A stretch of 37,738 bases of DNA. Origin: Alistipes sp. Lineage in GTDB: Bacteria; Bacteroidota; Bacteroidia; Bacteroidales; Rikenellaceae. The first letter of the stretch is position 1; every line of letters begins with the position of its first letter. The position numbers and the translations under genes are program-made. Below the pieces are notes generated by a model, which was given only the letters and a program-made list of their open reading frames with translations, had not been told where the DNA came from and did not search any database. Shown piece by piece: positions 4,647 through 31,714 of the stretch. Where the stretch lies: NCBI GenBank assembly GCA_017451685.1, contig JAFTNV010000012.1:1-37738 (forward strand), given 5' to 3'.

Positions 4647-4710
4647 AAGGCTCTTTTTATTCTACCTCCTAACAAAATGGGGCTGACTAAGCAACTTTTT
4701 AGTCAGCCCC
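4635..4710. repeat. Two-hairpin intergenic element between convergent genes
   Basis: First hairpin: GAGGTTGAATAAA (4635-4647) pairs with TTTATTCTACCTC (about 4656-4668). Second hairpin: GGGGCTGACTAA (4679-4690) pairs with TTAGTCAGCCCC (4699-4710), with a T-run inside its right arm. Both lie between the 3' ends of convergent genes, so they probably act as a bidirectional terminator. The same two-hairpin arrangement, with the same flanking GCTTGTA sequence, occurs at 31535-31691. Confidence 0.8.
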
Positions 4711-4732
4711 ATTGCTTGTAGGTATACGACCT

Positions 4733-6867: not shown

Positions 6868-8271
6868 ATGATGCAGACGGAGACATATAAGGAGGTTTGG
6901 CAAGACTGCCTCGACAGACTTCGACTCTCGATTACCGAGGAGGAGTTTGTCAAGTGGTTCAAGCCTATATGGCCCATCGGCTTCGATGGCTCGAATCTGC
7001 GTCTGAGGGTGCCCAACGAGAGCTTCGTGGTGAACATCGAGAAGCAGTTCCTTACACACCTTAAGCCTATCATCTCGGAACTCTATGGCGCTGATACTCA
7101 GCTGCATTATGCTGTGCCACGTGCTGCGCAACAGCCCCGCGTGGAGGCCTCTGCAACGGCCGTGCCGGAGTTCGCACGTCCGATAGACACTGCAAAGATA
7201 AAAAATCCTTTTGCAATTCCGGGCATGCGACGAATAATTATCGACCCGCAGCTCAACCTAAACTACACCTTCGACAACCACATCGAGGGTGAGTGCAACC
7301 GCTTAGCACGCTCGGCGGGCATGGCTGTGGCCGTGTCGCCCGGAACTACGGCATTCAACCCCTTGTATATCTATGGCGACTCGGGCCTTGGTAAGACACA
7401 TATCGTTCAGGCCATAGGTCACGAGGTGCGCCAGCGCCACCCCGAATTGCAGGTGCTCTACGTCTCGATGAATAAGTTCCAGGCGCAGTTCCAGACGGCA
7501 TACAAAAATGGCGATATTACCGACTTTATCCACTTCTACCAGACTATCGACGTGCTCATCATCGACGATATTCAGGAGCTCACGGGAAAGACCGGTACGC
7601 AGAACGTATTCTTCAACATCTTCAACCACCTACAGCTTGCCGGCAAGCAGCTAATCCTCACGTCGGATAAGCCCCCCGTGGAGCTGAAGGATATAGAGCA
7701 GCGTCTGCTCACACGTTTCAAGTGGGGACTCTCGGCATACCTCAGCGTTCCCGACTACGAGACGAAGGTTAAGATCATCCGCGCGAAGGCCAAGCGCCTC
7801 GGTGCCAACATCCCCGAGGATGTCGTTGCCTACCTCGCCGAGAACATCTCGGCAAACGTGCGCGAGATTGAGGGTGCTCTCTCGTCGCTCATAGCCAACG
7901 CCTCGTTCCTCGGCCGTAAGATAACGATATCGTTAGCGAAGGATATCTTGAAGGTATACGTAAAGCTCACGCAGCGCGAGATCACCATCGACCACATCGT
8001 CAAGGTCGTATGCGACTACTTCGAGATAGACCTCGACACCTTCAACTCGGCAAAGCGCACGCGCGATGTGGCACAGGCACGCCAGGTGGCTATGTATCTC
8101 TCGAAGCAGCACACCAAAGCACCGCTCACCGTCATAGGCTCATCTATCGGTGGCCGTAACCATGCCACGGTGCTCCACAGCTGCAAGGCTGTTGCCGACA
8201 TGATGGACACGGACAAGCAGTTTAAGGCGCAGATTGAGGAAATTGAGCGTATAGTGCTCGGTAAAAACTAA
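6868..8271 (+). CDS. dnaA: Chromosomal replication initiator protein DnaA
   Basis: 467 residues, normal length. Domain I (about 1-85, YKEVWQDCLDRLRLSITEEEFVKWFKPI) is the oligomerisation and helicase-contact domain. A short linker follows to about 120. The AAA+ domain shows NYTFDNHIEGECNRLA, Walker A GDSGLGKTH (170-178), Walker B LIIDDIQ (230-236) and LTSDKPP as sensor I. Domain IV carries the DnaA signature GGRNHATVLHSC, which contacts the DnaA box. It binds ATP and melts the origin to load DnaB. Two adjacent ATGs start the frame (6868 and 6871); no better start exists. A consensus DnaA box sits about 195 bases upstream, so autoregulation is likely. The stop codon merges with a large inverted repeat (8271-8397). 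Confidence 0.98.
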   Translation: MMQTETYKEVWQDCLDRLRLSITEEEFVKWFKPIWPIGFDGSNLRLRVPNESFVVNIEKQFLTHLKPIISELYGADTQLHYAVPRAAQQPRVEASATAVPEFARPIDTAKIKNPFAIPGMRRIIIDPQLNLNYTFDNHIEGECNRLARSAGMAVAVSPGTTAFNPLYIYGDSGLGKTHIVQAIGHEVRQRHPELQVLYVSMNKFQAQFQTAYKNGDITDFIHFYQTIDVLIIDDIQELTGKTGTQNVFFNIFNHLQLAGKQLILTSDKPPVELKDIEQRLLTRFKWGLSAYLSVPDYETKVKIIRAKAKRLGANIPEDVVAYLAENISANVREIEGALSSLIANASFLGRKITISLAKDILKVYVKLTQREITIDHIVKVVCDYFEIDLDTFNSAKRTRDVAQARQVAMYLSKQHTKAPLTVIGSSIGGRNHATVLHSCKAVADMMDTDKQFKAQIEEIERIVLGKN

Positions 8272-8397
8272 ATTTAGCGTGATAGCGGCGCATTAGCGGC
8301 GCTTCAATCAAAGCCATGAATGGAATGTACGTCAAGTACTATCCATCCATGGCTTTCTCATGTCAGCGCCACTACTGCACCACTCTGACGCTAAATT
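8271..8397. repeat. Stop-codon-anchored 127-base inverted repeat after dnaA
   Basis: AATTTAGCGT at 8271-8280 pairs perfectly with ACGCTAAATT at 8388-8397. Inside, AAGCCATG pairs with CATGGCTT, and GGCGC with GCGCC less regularly. The left arm begins at the last base of the dnaA stop. It closely parallels 19822-19953 after tsf in layout and length. It may act as a terminator or RNA-stabilising 3' structure, which is inference. Confidence 0.8.
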
Positions 8398-8405
8398 GGG
8401 TATGC
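8359..8405. repeat. About 47-base dispersed repeat, copy 1
   Basis: The block beginning CATGTCAGCGCC and running through ACTACTGCACCACTCTGAC to AAATTGGGTATGC matches 19960-20007 with few differences. GTCAG and CTGAC inside it can pair. The right end doubles as the right arm of the dnaA-distal inverted repeat. Confidence 0.85.
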
Positions 8406-8483
8406 TATCTGCTATGTCATGTTGAGCGAAGCGATAGCGCAGTCGAAACATCTCGGCACCCTTCTGACAAGAAATTGGGTGTG
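8401..8483. repeat. GTTGAGCGAAGCG/CGAAACAT interspersed element between direct repeats
   Basis: A segment containing CATGTTGAGCGAAGCG and CAGTCGAAACATCT (about 8417-8453) lies between two similar sequences, CTCTGACGCTAAATTGGGTATGC and CTTCTGACAAGAAATTGGGTGTGC (the second at 8462-8483). Translated, it yields a CHVERSDSAVETSRHP peptide, a pattern I recall as frequent in spurious frames from Bacteroidota intergenic repeats. It is not coding. Confidence 0.6.
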
Positions 8484-8492
8484 CTAACCTTA

Positions 8493-8573
8493 AATGAGTT
8501 TAGGGAGATTGACGATTTTGTTGATAGCGCTATCTCTAAAATCGTTAACCTCCCTAACTTCCCTAAACTCATT
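8493..8573. repeat. TTTAGGGAG inverted repeat downstream of the Na/Pi gene
   Basis: AATGAGTTTAGGGAG at 8493-8507 pairs with CTTCCCTAAACTCATT at the right end, and ACGATTTT pairs with AAAATCGT further in, making an 81-base hairpin. It ends 10 bases from the stop of the minus-strand transporter gene and may terminate it. A related array is at 20024-20125. Confidence 0.85.
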
Positions 8574-8583
8574 ACAGTTGCGC

Positions 8584-10296
8584 TTACTTGCCCAGCGCCT
8601 GCGAGATGTTGATGATAAAGTCGCCCATGCGCTCAATCTCCGAGATGGTGTCGAGGTAGTAGACGCTCGACTGGTAGTTCGTGCCGTCGTTCTCAATCTT
8701 GAGAATCTCCTCCTCGCGGATGTTGTTACGCAGCTCGTTAATCTCAATCTCGCAATCCGTAGCCAGGCGCAAGCCCATAGCATCGTACTCCTCGGTGCGG
8801 AGATTGTCGATCATCACGCCATAGGCCTTGTCTACGGCCGTGAGCATAACATCGAGCTTGGCCTTCTGCTCCGCGGTGAAAGTCTTGCCGTGGCTATTGC
8901 GGCGTGCGAGGATGCGGCTGATGCTCTCGCCAGAGTCGCCAAGGCTCTCAAGCTCACCGATAATCTTATACATGCGCTTGGTCTCCGTGCGTGTCTCCTC
9001 CGAGATGCTATCCTCGGGAAGGGCGTTGAGGAACTGTGCTATCTCGTACTCTATGCGGTCAGAGATCTCCTCGTACTTAACGAGCTTCTGGCGTGCCTCT
9101 TCGAACTCCTTGTCGTTCTTGGCCTCCACGGCGCGGCGGATGAAGCCTATGCCGCGGCGTGAGATCTCGGCAAAGTGGACAACCTCGTTGCGGGCCTCGC
9201 CAACAGCAATCTCGGCTGTCGAGAGTGGGCCTGCGTTGATATACTTGAGCTTCACGTTATCCTCATCGGCACCCTTCTTATCCTTGATGACACGTGTCAC
9301 AATCTTAACGATTAGCTTCACGAACCATATAAGGATACATGTGTTGAATACGTTGAAGAGCGTGTGGAGCATAGATATACCGTAGAGTGCCGCCATGCTC
9401 TCGGGAGACTCGGGCTTCGCCGTCATAAGCATCTCCGAGGTTACATCCAAGGGGTTGGGGAGTCCCATCCACGTGATAGTCTCGCCGATAAGGGTAAGGA
9501 AGGGGGTGAAGAGCAGCAGTGCCCAGCATACGCCAAACACGTTGAAGAGCGTATGTGCCAGAGCGGCACGGCGTGCGTTAGCGTTACCCACAACAGCAGC
9601 AATGTTTGCCGTGATGGTTGTACCTATATTCTCGCCAAGCACCATTGCTGCGGCCATCTCGAAGGGTATGTAGCCCATGTTCATCGCCACGAGCGCGAGC
9701 GCCATTGTCGCTGATGATGACTGCAACACGAGCGTTAGTACCGTGCCGAACACCAAGAAGATAAGCACCGAGCCAAAGCCGTAGCTTGTCCATCCCTCAA
9801 TGAAGGCGAGGGTCGAGGCGTTAAGCTCGGGAACAGACTCCTTCATGAACGATAGACCGAGGAATAGGAGCGAGAAGCCCACGAGAAGCTCGCTGATATG
9901 GCGACGCTTATCCTGCTTAGAGAGGCTGAGGAGGAAGCCTACGGCCATGATGGGCACAGCAAAGATTGATATGTCGGCCTTGAAACCGAGCCATGACACG
10001 AGCCATGCCGTTACCGTGGTACCGATGTTAGCACCCATAATCACACCTACGGCCTGTGATAGCGTGAGCAGACCTGCGTTAACGAAGCCTACGGTCATCA
10101 CCGTAGTTGCCGAAGATGATTGTATCACCGAGGTGATACCAAGGCCGGTCATTACACCCTTGAGGGGGTTTGAGGTCATAGCAGTGAGGAAAGTACGCAT
10201 CTTGCTACCTGCCGCCTTCTGTAGACCCGAGCTCATGAGGTTCATTCCGTAGAGGAACATACCCAAGGCTCCAAGAAGTGTCAATAATTGCATCAT
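8584..10296 (-). CDS. Na/Pi cotransporter family protein with C-terminal PhoU-like domain
   Basis: 570 residues. The membrane half (about 1-320) contains the family's inverted repeats, each with QSSSAT: VIQSSSATTV at 58-67 and LQSSSATMAL at 191-200, plus GANIGTT (88-94) and GENIGTT. These form the sodium and phosphate sites in the NptA/SLC34-type family. After about residue 350 a helical PhoU-like domain follows (many charged helices, MGDFIINISQALGK at the end), as in bacterial YjbB-like members. Family role: sodium-coupled phosphate transport across the inner membrane; for YjbB homologues export has been reported, so direction here is open. A TTGC/TATCTTTG promoter is readable at 10336-10366 on the minus strand. 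Confidence 0.93.
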   Translation of the reverse strand: MMQLLTLLGALGMFLYGMNLMSSGLQKAAGSKMRTFLTAMTSNPLKGVMTGLGITSVIQSSSATTVMTVGFVNAGLLTLSQAVGVIMGANIGTTVTAWLVSWLGFKADISIFAVPIMAVGFLLSLSKQDKRRHISELLVGFSLLFLGLSFMKESVPELNASTLAFIEGWTSYGFGSVLIFLVFGTVLTLVLQSSSATMALALVAMNMGYIPFEMAAAMVLGENIGTTITANIAAVVGNANARRAALAHTLFNVFGVCWALLLFTPFLTLIGETITWMGLPNPLDVTSEMLMTAKPESPESMAALYGISMLHTLFNVFNTCILIWFVKLIVKIVTRVIKDKKGADEDNVKLKYINAGPLSTAEIAVGEARNEVVHFAEISRRGIGFIRRAVEAKNDKEFEEARQKLVKYEEISDRIEYEIAQFLNALPEDSISEETRTETKRMYKIIGELESLGDSGESISRILARRNSHGKTFTAEQKAKLDVMLTAVDKAYGVMIDNLRTEEYDAMGLRLATDCEIEINELRNNIREEEILKIENDGTNYQSSVYYLDTISEIERMGDFIINISQALGK

Positions 10297-11949: not shown

Positions 11950-12032
11950 TGTGTATAATTATTTTTAGTGTTGTTGAAAATTTATATAAGGGATAATTAT
12001 GCGAGGAACGTTGTTTACTATCTTAAATATCA

Positions 12033-12064
12033 GGGGCTGGCTAAATTACTTTTTAGTCAGCCCC
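12033..12064 (-). terminator. GGGGCTG-ACTTTTTAGTC hairpin after tRNA-Arg
   Basis: GGGGCTGGCTAAA and TTTTAGTCAGCCCC pair with one G-T wobble. It lies just past the 3' end of tRNA-Arg (minus strand) and belongs to the same family as the hairpins at 1734, 4679 and 31661. No T-run follows on either strand. Confidence 0.6.
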
Positions 12065-12074
12065 TATCCTGTCG

Positions 12075-12146
12075 TAGCCCCTCCGAGACTCGAACTCGGA
12101 TCTAAGGTTTAGGAAACCTTCGTTCTATCCCTTGAACTAAAGAGCC
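12075..12146 (-). tRNA. tRNA-Arg (anticodon CCT)
   Basis: A 72-base cloverleaf reads on the minus strand: acceptor GGCTCTT/AGGGGCT (three G-T pairs), D stem GTTC/GAAC, anticodon stem AAGGT/ACCTT with loop TTCCTAA (anticodon CCT), and T stem CCGAG/CTCGG with TTCGAGT loop. CCA is not encoded. The CCT anticodon reads AGG. A perfect promoter lies upstream (12157-12187). Confidence 0.95.
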
Positions 12147-18992: not shown

Positions 18993-19823
18993 ATGGAAAT
19001 CAAAGCAGCTGATGTAATGAAGCTCCGCAAGATGACCGGTGCAGGTATGATGGATTGCAAGAAGGCTCTCCAGGAGGCTGAGGGCGATTTCGAGCGCGCT
19101 AAGGATATCATCCGCGAGAAGGGTAAGCTCGTTGTTGCTAAGCGTTCAGACCGTACTGCAACTGAGGGTGTTGTTGTAACTAAGATTGTTGGCCAGAAGG
19201 CTTATATCCTCTGCCTCGCTTGCGAGACTGACTTCGTGGCAGCAAACGTAGAGTTCGGTGCTTCGGCAAACGCTATGTTGGAGGTTGCTGTTGCTGCTGA
19301 TGCAGCTGACCGCGACGCTCTCATGGCCACTAAGAACGCTGAGGGTAACACTGTTGAGGAGATGGTAACAGAGAAGTCTGGCCAGACAGGTGAGAAGGTA
19401 GAGCTCGCTTACTACGCTCGTATCGAGGCTCCCTACTGCGTATCATACGTTCACTTCAACAAGAAGCTCGGTACTATCCTCGGCTTCAACAAGGCTGTCG
19501 ACGAGGAGGTTGCAAAGAAGGTGGCTATGCAGGCTACGGCTATGGCTCCCCTCTCAATCGACGAGAACGACTGCCCCGCAGAGGTTGTTGAGAAGGAGAA
19601 GACTATCCAGATGGAGATGATGAAGCAGGATCCCAAGAACGCTAACAAGCCCGACGCTATCCTCGAGAAGATTGCTGAGGGTAAGATGCGTAAGTTCTTC
19701 GAGGAGAACACTCTTCTCAACCAGTGCGTTGTAGGCGAGAAGGAGTCTATCCGCGAGTTCATCCAGAAGGCTGACAAGGAGGCTACGGTTGTGGCATACA
19801 AGCGTTTCGCTCTCGAAGCTTAA
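18993..19823 (+). CDS. tsf: Elongation factor Ts
   Basis: 276 residues. The N-terminal UBA-like domain with VMKLRKMTGAGMMDCKKALQEAEGD and the core motif CETDFVAAN, which contacts EF-Tu and disrupts its Mg site, are intact. The C-terminal part (KFFEENTLLNQCVVGEKESIREF) is also standard. EF-Ts recycles EF-Tu-GDP to GTP in the cytoplasm. The usual bacterial order rpsB-tsf is kept. Its TAA forms the beginning of a 132-base inverted repeat (19822-19953). Confidence 0.98.
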   Translation: MEIKAADVMKLRKMTGAGMMDCKKALQEAEGDFERAKDIIREKGKLVVAKRSDRTATEGVVVTKIVGQKAYILCLACETDFVAANVEFGASANAMLEVAVAADAADRDALMATKNAEGNTVEEMVTEKSGQTGEKVELAYYARIEAPYCVSYVHFNKKLGTILGFNKAVDEEVAKKVAMQATAMAPLSIDENDCPAEVVEKEKTIQMEMMKQDPKNANKPDAILEKIAEGKMRKFFEENTLLNQCVVGEKESIREFIQKADKEATVVAYKRFALEA

Positions 19824-19953
19824 TTTGGAGTGATAAGGGGCCATCTATGCCCTATCATAAATAGTAAGACCCCTCGGGCTGTACGTTTTAGTACTATCCC
19901 GAGGGGATCTTCTATTTAGATAGAACAAATCTAACCCCTTCTGACTCCAAATT
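19822..19953. repeat. Stop-codon-anchored 132-base inverted repeat after tsf
   Basis: AATTTGGAGT (19822-19831) pairs with ACTCCAAATT (19944-19953); AGGGG then pairs with CCCCT further in. A strong inner hairpin, CCCCTCGGG (19870-19878) with CCCGAGGGG (19898-19906), extended by AAATAG/CTATTT, can terminate tsf transcription. Compared with 8271-8397, the stem triplets differ on both sides so that pairing is kept. Confidence 0.85.
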
Positions 19954-19959
19954 AATTTT

Positions 19960-20007
19960 CATGTCAGTGCCACTACTGCACCACTCTGACATGAAATTAG
20001 GGCGTGC
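19960..20007. repeat. About 47-base dispersed repeat, copy 2
   Basis: CATGTCAGTGCC through ACTACTGCACCACTCTGAC to ATGAAATTAGGGCGTGC matches 8359-8405. Here TTTCATGTCAG and CTGACATGAAA form a perfect 11-base-pair hairpin with extra GTG/CAC. Confidence 0.85.
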
Positions 20008-20023
20008 AACCCAGAATGGTGTG

Positions 20024-20125
20024 ATTTAGGGAGTTTAGGGAGATTAGAGAGTTTAGAGAGATTAGAGAGTTTAGGGATGACAATTCAAAAAACACCCTAA
20101 ATTCCTTAAATTCCCTAAACTCCCT
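20024..20125. repeat. TTTAGGGAG repeat array with inverted counterpart
   Basis: Left half: direct repeats of TTTAGGGAG and ATTAGAGAG (20024-20077), with a 16-base unit GAGATTAGAGAGTTTA twice. Right half: CCCTAAATTCC, TTAAATTCC and CTAAACTCCCT (20093-20125) complement it. Probably related to 8493-8573. No gene. Confidence 0.85.
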
Positions 20126-20218
20126 ACTAATAAAAACACTCTTGACGCAACCTGTCAAAAAGCGGTGGTTACTTTGCATCGTGAAACAAACGATAACGAT
20201 GATTAAAACCGCAAAGTT

Positions 20219-28484: not shown

Positions 28485-28515
28485 TTTGCCGTTATAGAAA
28501 TTTTTCGTACATTTG
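28485..28515 (+). promoter_or_regulatory. Promoter of the thiamin operon
   Basis: TTTG (28485-28488), 19-base spacer, TACATTTG (28508-28515); the riboswitch follows within about 10 bases, so the transcript would start at its 5' edge. Confidence 0.78.
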
Positions 28516-28521
28516 TGAAGA

Positions 28522-28596
28522 CAAAGGGGTGCCTTCAGTGGCTGAGATTATACCCTCGAACCTGATGCAGTTAGTACTGCCGTAGGAATTGTGGAT
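28522..28596 (+). promoter_or_regulatory. TPP riboswitch (THI element)
   Basis: The aptamer core is visible in order: AGGGGTGCC, GGCTGAGATTATACCCTCGAACC, CTGATGCAGTTA and ACTGCCGTAGGAATTGTGG. These correspond to the conserved CUGAGA pyrimidine-binding and ACCUGAU/CGUAGG pyrophosphate-binding segments of the thiamin pyrophosphate riboswitch. It controls thiD-thiE-thi4 and the second thiE-like gene downstream. Its platform is a transcription terminator (28605-28642). Confidence 0.95.
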
Positions 28597-28604
28597 AATA
28601 TCAT

Positions 28605-28642
28605 AACGCATACCCCATATAATATAGGTATGCGTTTTCTTG
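28605..28642 (+). terminator. Riboswitch-controlled terminator
   Basis: AACGCATACC (28605-28614) pairs perfectly with GGTATGCGTT (28627-28636), followed by TTCTTGTTT. It begins 9 bases after the aptamer, so TPP binding could favour it and stop transcription before thiD. Confidence 0.85.
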
Positions 28643-31534: not shown

Positions 31535-31691
31535 GAGGCTGAATAAAAAGGCTCTTTTGTCGTTATGCTTGCCCTCAAAATGCTCATTTACGTCGAGTAA
31601 ACTCCGCTTTTTCGGGCTTCGCAGGCCTAAAAATAGCTCTTTTTATTCAACCTCAACAACGGGGATGACTAATTTACTTTTTAGTCACCCC
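31535..31691. repeat. Two-hairpin element with internal insertion after the thiamin operon
   Basis: GAGGCTGAATAAAAAGGCT (from 31535) pairs with AGCTCTTTTTATTCAACCTC (31635-31654). Between them is an 80-base insert holding TTTACGTCGAGTAAA. Then GGGGATGACTAA pairs with TTAGTCACCCCC (31661-31691), with an A-C mismatch. It has the same order as 4635-4710. It follows directly on the last stop of the operon and faces the 3' end of the NifX-like gene. Confidence 0.85.
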
Positions 31692-31714
31692 CTTTGCTTG
31701 TATATCTACCTCTC

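Follow-up and report, generated by a model that had tools for sequence, protein, structure and literature searches.

YPAL, a palindromic element of Yersinia, sits just after stop codons. Under this name or as RU-2, it is described in a 2007 review as occurring at filled sites that have empty counterparts, and as possibly influencing the stability of the upstream transcript (PMC2229807). The same review treats ERIC as a MITE that is tied to mRNA stability and whose orientation is crucial, and describes a transposase mechanism for it as lacking experimental support (PMC2229807); ERIC is listed elsewhere in Vibrio cholerae and Yersinia pestis (PMC2267715). REP and REPIN sequences are likewise palindromes described as short and mobile, for which hairpin intermediates are proposed (PMC3116915), and the termini of GTAG REPs are reported often to supply a TAG stop codon (PMC3733652). 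Strain typing makes wide use of ERIC. The titles and abstracts listed in a literature search, outside of which most subscription papers lay, name no element of Alistipes or other Bacteroidetes of the kind described below.

The DNA considered here, referred to as the window, is the whole stretch of 37,738 nucleotides of contig JAFTNV010000012.1 from an Alistipes sp. assembly (GCA_017451685.1; 1.59 Mb, 43 contigs, 80.6% complete). In it the genes dnaA and tsf, whose identities are confirmed by Pfam, each run at their stop codon into an imperfect palindrome that belongs to a large family. We put at roughly 0.65 the probability that this family represents ERIC in the Bacteroidota, as a branch whose copies dock on stop codons and act as exchangeable 3'-end modules.

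Results

The two palindromes (Table 1) fold end to end. The original prediction had described outer arms that pair in spite of their differing triplets, a start at the stop codon, GATA after each left arm, CTG before each right arm, and total lengths of 127 and 132 bases. All of these features are present, and the description was if anything understated, the two hairpins being two of at least 87 places in the genome. Inward of the outer stems, pairing carries on to a central terminator-like hairpin in both elements. As RNA, the dnaA and tsf elements have folding z-scores of -10.3 and -9.7 on the gene strand and -12.1 and -11.0 on the other strand, with none of 200 shuffles as stable in each case, on either strand; the predicted energies are -76.0 kcal/mol (minus) versus -61.6 kcal/mol (plus) for dnaA and -72.2 versus -63.6 for tsf. 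The rearranged mini-element just downstream of the tsf element has z-scores of -5.6 (plus) and -4.1 (minus). Rfam gave no match above gathering score at either element, and in region 8200-8600, searched at E values up to 10, nothing came near that score. A simple terminator scan left the dnaA copy unflagged and, in the tsf hairpin, picked out just a short stretch. The GTGATA/CTGAC loop was considered as a kink-turn or box C/D motif, a reading rejected because its bulge is by eye too short.

Table 1. Coordinates of the two window elements, their parts and adjoining remnants
Feature	Position	Strand	Remark
Complete element after dnaA	8271..8397	(-), the better-folding strand, opposite dnaA	Covariance model R1, 130.3 bits; among R1's 18 copies
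dnaA stop codon TAA	8269..8271	+	ORF 6868-8271, Bac_DnaA; overlaps the element's first base
Left outer arm, dnaA element, triplet AGC	8271..8280	+	AATTTAGCGT
Right outer arm, dnaA element, triplet GCT	8388..8397	+	ACGCTAAATT
Central hairpin, dnaA element, loop GTAC-GTCAA-GTAC, terminator-like module	8310..8356		Fold
Apparent right-arm remnant of an older element, AAG-ended subtype	8452..8476	+	By eye
Complete element after tsf	19822..19953	(-)	Covariance model R1, 110.8 bits; among R1's 18 copies
tsf stop codon TAA	19821..19823	+	ORF 18993-19823, EF_TS; overlaps the element
Left outer arm, tsf element, triplet GGA	19822..19831	+	AATTTGGAGT
Right outer arm, tsf element, triplet TCC	19944..19953	+	ACTCCAAATT
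Central hairpin, tsf element, loop GTAC-GTTTTA-GTAC, terminator-like module	19866..19911		Fold
Rearranged mini-element just downstream of the tsf element	19954..19998	+	Right-arm-type sequence at both ends; arms complementary again

Other repeats share the window. Palindromes of a second type, TTTAGGGAG...CTCCCTAAA, lie after both elements (8494-8575 and 20027-20126) and recur after several other element copies in the genome. A terminator-like hairpin of the form GGGG(C)TGACTAA..TTTTTAGTCA.CCCC occurs three times (4676-4727, 12030-12081 and 31658-31709; 62-81% alike to the first), and hairpins related to it are found inside or beside some elements. Tandem 7-base repeats of the ACTCACT type occupy positions 1-168, with similar tracts downstream of several element copies, and a TPP riboswitch (RF00059, 64.3 bits) lies at 28515-28605.

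The covariance model R1, built from 18 copies that include the two of the window, returned at least 126 rows from the assembly, which merge across strands into at least 87 places (150 of 504 candidates scored; C29:18304 and C29:18377 partly overlap, and several places are cut pieces at contig ends). Across the 1.59 Mb, the pattern AATTTAGCGTGATA is matched exactly at 7 places, and a reversed control pattern at none. Across the genus, R1 matches at least 66 of 101 genomes, this one included, with 34 candidates scored per genome, and the expectation that a covariance search of the genome and its relatives would bring up more copies was thus borne out. With candidates capped in this way, and with stricter filters in searches over 40 genomes, these copy and genome counts are minima. 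Arrays of differing subtypes occur.

Against DnaA identity, the distribution of the element across the genus is patchy. For the 95 relatives having both values, strong matches (E at most 1e-15), among the matches listed, occur in 28 of 28 with a DnaA identity of at least 80%; at 70-76% at least 12 of 36 have any match and at least one a strong match, and at 60-66% at least 20 of 22 have any match and at least 18 a strong one. The closest named relatives of the tsf gene are Alistipes from yak caecum.

Some copies and contigs call for separate mention. Contigs C23 and C37 share regions with identical copies and flanks, which is probably assembly redundancy; the C37 copies were left out of the counts as duplicates of those on C23. 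At C24:5918 and C31:10867, and at L252:7074 in the relative G082, another central module, TGCTCATTTAC..GTAAACTCCGC, stands within similar outer arms, and the centre of the element was there apparently exchanged as a module. Downstream of dnaA in another relative (L215, G080), another perfect hairpin interrupts the element near its loop.

The siting at stop codons seen in the window is common in the family. In a set of 81 own copies (leaving out the C37 duplicates and 4 of the 87 places lacking fetched flanks), an open frame of 60 codons or more ends at the left end of the element (-8 to +12) in 59, compared with 2 of 81 in the mirrored test at the right end; the corresponding counts in G082 are 40 and 3 of 54, and the orientation of the element relative to the gene is therefore nearly fixed. 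The stops at the 59 docked copies are TAA in 49, TAG in 6 and TGA in 4, and the other 22 copies comprise 11 that follow another copy and 11 in other settings. Many copies start T|AATT, and TAA starts exactly one base ahead of the element in 38 of 83 rows. The gene next to a docked copy is convergent in 34 cases and co-directional in 23, with none within 1 kb in 2. The best copy is also stop-adjacent in 21 of 27 other genomes of the genus (two loci of uncertain strand uncounted). No clean pair of empty and filled sites with a target duplication was found, the intergenic DNA at sites empty in G082 differing throughout by eye. One copy (L172, about 994-1187, in G000:C13) lies directly after a duplicated tRNA-Gly 3' end, downstream of the intact tRNA gene, an arrangement like an integration scar.

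The stem covariation that the original prediction had read from AGC/GCT after dnaA and GGA/TCC after tsf extends to copies outside the model. In 40 copies from G082, none of them in R1, both sides have changed in 35 of 45 pairs. Standard pairs make up 91.8% of cells versus 74.0% when shuffled, cells changed on both sides number 289 versus 88.5, and pairing with partners slid by 1-3 columns is 41-46%, all in an alignment that was fitted to R1 and so favours pairing, and that the slid controls share. The arm triplets are fully complementary in 78 of 115 regular-ended copies, compared with a mean of 21 and a maximum of 34 in 2000 permutations. Together with the further copies and the siting at stop codons, this covariation supports a conserved folded element, as had been proposed.

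The fold is also consistently better on one strand. Among 130 copies (77 own and 53 from G082, those under 118 bases left out), the strand opposite the gene is the more stable in 121 under RNA parameters and in 121 under DNA parameters, and so it is in 56 of the 59 stop-adjacent own copies, where orientation is independent of the model. Mispairs on the opposite strand are biased, G-T numbering 587 versus 194 and G-A 656 versus 229. The 6-mers beside the covarying triplet differ between the arms in 128 of the 130 copies, 65 of which have GATA against CAGA. Given the strand-biased mispairs and the same 6-mer on both arms in just 2 of 130 copies, the arms fall short of perfect pairing and are not freely homogenised, and what is kept is an imperfect fold. 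A founder effect is unlikely as the sole cause of the strand bias, which very different copies from other genera show in 18 of 18 cases.

On either strand the central hairpin resembles a terminator: five or more T in the 8 bases beside it are found on the gene strand in 101 of 130 copies and on the opposite strand in 84 of 130, versus 4.5% of 830 random positions in upstream flanks. Were transcription to stop at this hairpin, the resulting RNA would not contain paired outer arms.

Comparison with relatives reveals that the position of a site is kept while the content of the element is swapped. In 1.15 Mb of G082, 26 of the 34 own stop sites that have an orthologous gene end are occupied. The mean identity of these orthologous elements is 0.72, versus 0.69 for random pairs of own and G082 copies (Mann-Whitney P about 0.009), and the best own paralogue, with a mean identity of 0.90, beats the orthologue at 25 of the 26 sites; a few orthologous sites look inherited (identity 0.8-0.9). 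Inspection by eye of 0.64 Mb of G081 gave the same picture. At the dnaA site G082 has a CTT-type element, and by eye, among 29 relatives, the stop of dnaA is followed by an element in 8, of various subtypes (L214, L215, L216, L227, L229, L231, L233 and L234), by a remnant in one (L213) and by an ordinary terminator-like hairpin in many others. After tsf, two of seven relatives have other subtypes and three have ordinary terminators.

A mobilising enzyme was not found. The reverse-transcriptase family RVT_1 has no match in this genome (80.6% complete) and matches in 33 of 101 genus genomes, and a reverse-transcriptase mobiliser was rejected on the former ground; a REP/RAYT identity was likewise rejected, Y1 (PF01797) having no match in this genome, at the same completeness, and matches in 1 of 101 genus genomes. 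A strict arm pattern was used to look for an autonomous copy, in which a gene would lie between ends of this kind, in the window and in the stretches of G082 (1.15 Mb) and G081 (0.64 Mb), and none of the 22 short and 4 long-only pairs was convincing.

Beyond the genus, related elements occur across families of the order. R1 matches at least 3 other genomes among 295, in two other families (best E 1.5e-7; 11 candidates per genome), and the model R2, which adds four of the loci from other families of the order to R1, matches at least 15 of the 295 genomes and at least 13 of the 184 genera, this genome and its genus counted, with 11 candidates scored per genome. The 18 loci from other genera, one of them in the same family, fold better on the opposite strand in 18 of 18, with the strand assigned by the model, and 9 of 18 have the stop of an open frame between -14 and +21, a wider range than that used for own copies. 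In L303 the TGA inside GTGATAA closes a 403-codon open frame, whose last codons are complemented by the right arm. A third model, R3, combines 19 loci of the order with the two window copies (21 in total, 2 of them from Alistipes, with no proteobacterial sequence) and in the phylum matches at least 5 of 395 genomes, namely this one and four of a single distant family, f136 (8 candidates scored per genome). Of three f136 copies read, two by eye come immediately after an apparent tRNA 3' end; a place similar to the f136 element is found in 1574 of 5426 E. coli genomes. The element of another family (f88, L381) had no BLAST match in plasmids or E. coli.

The core common to the copies across the order is one that we take to be ERIC-like. 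As a pattern it matched 8 viral contigs, among them L391, and a longer pattern matched none. A sequence similar to L391 occurs in 5376 of 5426 E. coli genomes, at a median of 11 places (BLAST, one query), and at L403, the best of the E. coli loci, which lies some 50 bases downstream of psuT, the ERIC2 primer site agrees at 22 of 22 positions and ERIC1R at 21 of 22; at two further loci primer-site identity is 18-19 of 22. R3 matches L391 (45.9 bits, E 1.9e-7). Enterobacterial ERIC-type loci were retrieved through similarity to L391, and of 5 such loci R3 matches 4 and misses L405, rates that are biased by L391 having been picked by the core and the other loci through L391; L409 was dropped from the ERIC set. 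The alignment of R3 to ERIC runs end to end (model positions 1-127), with similar blocks, GGCG..AAG and AACGCA, outside the core. Among the pattern-matched viral contigs, R3 also matches L388 and L389 and partially L386 (positions 39-88), and has no match in L387, L390, L392 or L393. Nor does it match L397, L398, L399 or L401, L400 giving only E 0.32, and in 49 kb of K-12 it has no further match at E up to 10. The Alistipes-only R1 matches none of eight loci (six ERIC-type, two f136), and R2 matches neither L391 nor the ERIC-type loci given to it. One ERIC copy of K. aerogenes starts right at the ffh stop codon, oriented as the Alistipes copies are, and 4 of 4 ERIC-type loci that were folded have their more stable fold on the same strand. 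Beside the hemE stop in E. coli (L399, hemE-nfi) lies a longer palindrome whose core is related. The link to ERIC is thus stepwise, in that R1 reaches other families and R3 reaches ERIC with R1 alone lacking an ERIC match, and through this chain of models we consider kinship between the Alistipes elements and ERIC to be quite likely.

Discussion

In the reading that we favour, the element would be a short non-coding palindrome, an ERIC-like (IRU/RU-1, 127 bp) miniature mobile sequence, that docks on a stop codon in a fixed orientation, its first bases AATTT completing TAA in many copies. The central hairpin and its T-rich tails would terminate transcription of the upstream gene and, between convergent genes, of the opposing one too. 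The outer arms would be under a structural constraint on the strand opposite the gene, which most probably stems from a folded single strand, either DNA or antisense RNA, that is recognised by some machinery during movement or recombination. The host may have grown dependent on the module as a 3' end, which would keep old sites occupied, while other copies would repeatedly replace the sequence found at each of them, either through re-insertion at shared AATT ends or through ectopic recombination, with both of which the mosaic copies and the arrays sharing AATT are compatible. The original prediction had offered a family of 3'-end structures, a terminator and a mobile hairpin inserting at stops as three readings; the structural family is seen directly, and each of the three may hold in part, with terminator activity and mobility put forward here as proposals.

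It is also worth weighing whether the elements could be a purely functional family of 3'-end RNAs, a terminator with an outer structure, that evolves in place by compensatory change and never moves. The retention of sites between species (26 of 34), the abutting of copies on gene ends and the strong covariation all fit such a family, as does the presence, by eye, of ordinary terminator-like hairpins at the same place in several relatives that have no element. However, similar copies lie at unrelated loci, with paralogues (mean 0.90) closer than orthologues at 25 of 26 sites, differing subtypes stand in arrays, the strand opposite the gene folds better, and the outer arms reach beyond the presumed point of termination, and we therefore regard evolution purely in place as unlikely. 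Still less probable, in our view, is that the complementarity of the arms is a DNA-level by-product of template switching, in which one arm is recopied from the other and structure is not selected at all. Template switching is described as homogenising arms in yeast (PMC8604942), rearranged copies with arms that match again do exist (19954-19998 in the window and the G081 copy C24:1694), and at C13:20516 the right arm complements the last codons of the gene; nonetheless, full homogenisation would erase the difference between the arm 6-mers that persists in 128 of 130 copies, and the process leaves the one-strand bias of G-T and G-A mispairs unexplained.

A separate doubt concerns the tie to ERIC, in that convergence might account for the likeness of two palindromes, each about 127 bases long and with a loop of the GTAC type. 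That R1 finds none of the eight loci and R2 also lacks an ERIC match would be expected of convergence; small palindromic cores can recur, and the loci were selected through the core. The end-to-end alignment of R3 with similar blocks outside the core speaks against it, as do the scarcity of R3 matches (among those listed, 5 of 395 phylum genomes, and none in the K-12 background) and the shared better-folding strand in 4 of 4 ERIC-type loci, and we are inclined to doubt convergence about as much as evolution in place. We hold more tentatively, at somewhat short of even odds, the wider proposal that ERIC is the enterobacterial end of an ancient class of elements that spans phyla; its members would be recognised by their opposite-strand fold and would dock at stops as interchangeable 3'-end modules, with sequence replaced while position and fold persist.

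The many covarying Bacteroidota copies provide a denser data set for such elements, and the related species allow gain, loss and replacement to be watched. Position kept with content swapped, along with the consistent strand bias, offers testable clues to how the elements spread, and suggests that in these gut bacteria exchangeable repeats set where core genes, dnaA and tsf among them, have their 3' ends.

When set beside known systems, the Alistipes elements share with Rho-independent terminators a central hairpin with a T-rich tail on the gene strand, and differ in that their covarying outer arms run from the stop codon past the presumed termination point; several relatives that lack the element have, by eye, ordinary terminator-like hairpins at the same place. 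The palindromic candidate RNA HMP2_4205 (132 bp, mostly Bacteroidetes), which was compared by its description, is alike in size, palindromy and a predicted terminator (PMC8040213). REP and REPIN sequences differ, the REP units being 20-40 bp and RAYT-mobilised. YPAL, at about 168 bp, is likewise a palindromic element, and is set apart, going by its description, by its greater length, its internal inverted repeats and its target duplications of 3-26 bp (PMC2229807).

ERIC is the closest of these systems, with several differences. The Alistipes copies have AATTT ends, other central modules and strong docking on stop codons, and their density is apparently higher, at least 87 covariance-model places in 1.59 Mb compared with a median of 11 BLAST places in E. 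coli, counts obtained by differing methods. The hosts belong to different phyla, ERIC being found in enterobacteria and their relatives and the present element in Alistipes. ERIC inserts at TA with a target duplication, and many Alistipes copies read T|AATT, though no clean empty site was found. ERIC is co-transcribed with neighbouring genes and affects mRNA stability, and the stop-codon position of the Alistipes copies is compatible with a like behaviour. Finally, both ERIC (IRU/RU-1) and the present elements are full-length imperfect palindromes of about 127 bp that are intergenic, that share a core in the model alignment and a folding bias towards the opposite strand, and that, in the one case of ffh, share a start at a stop codon.
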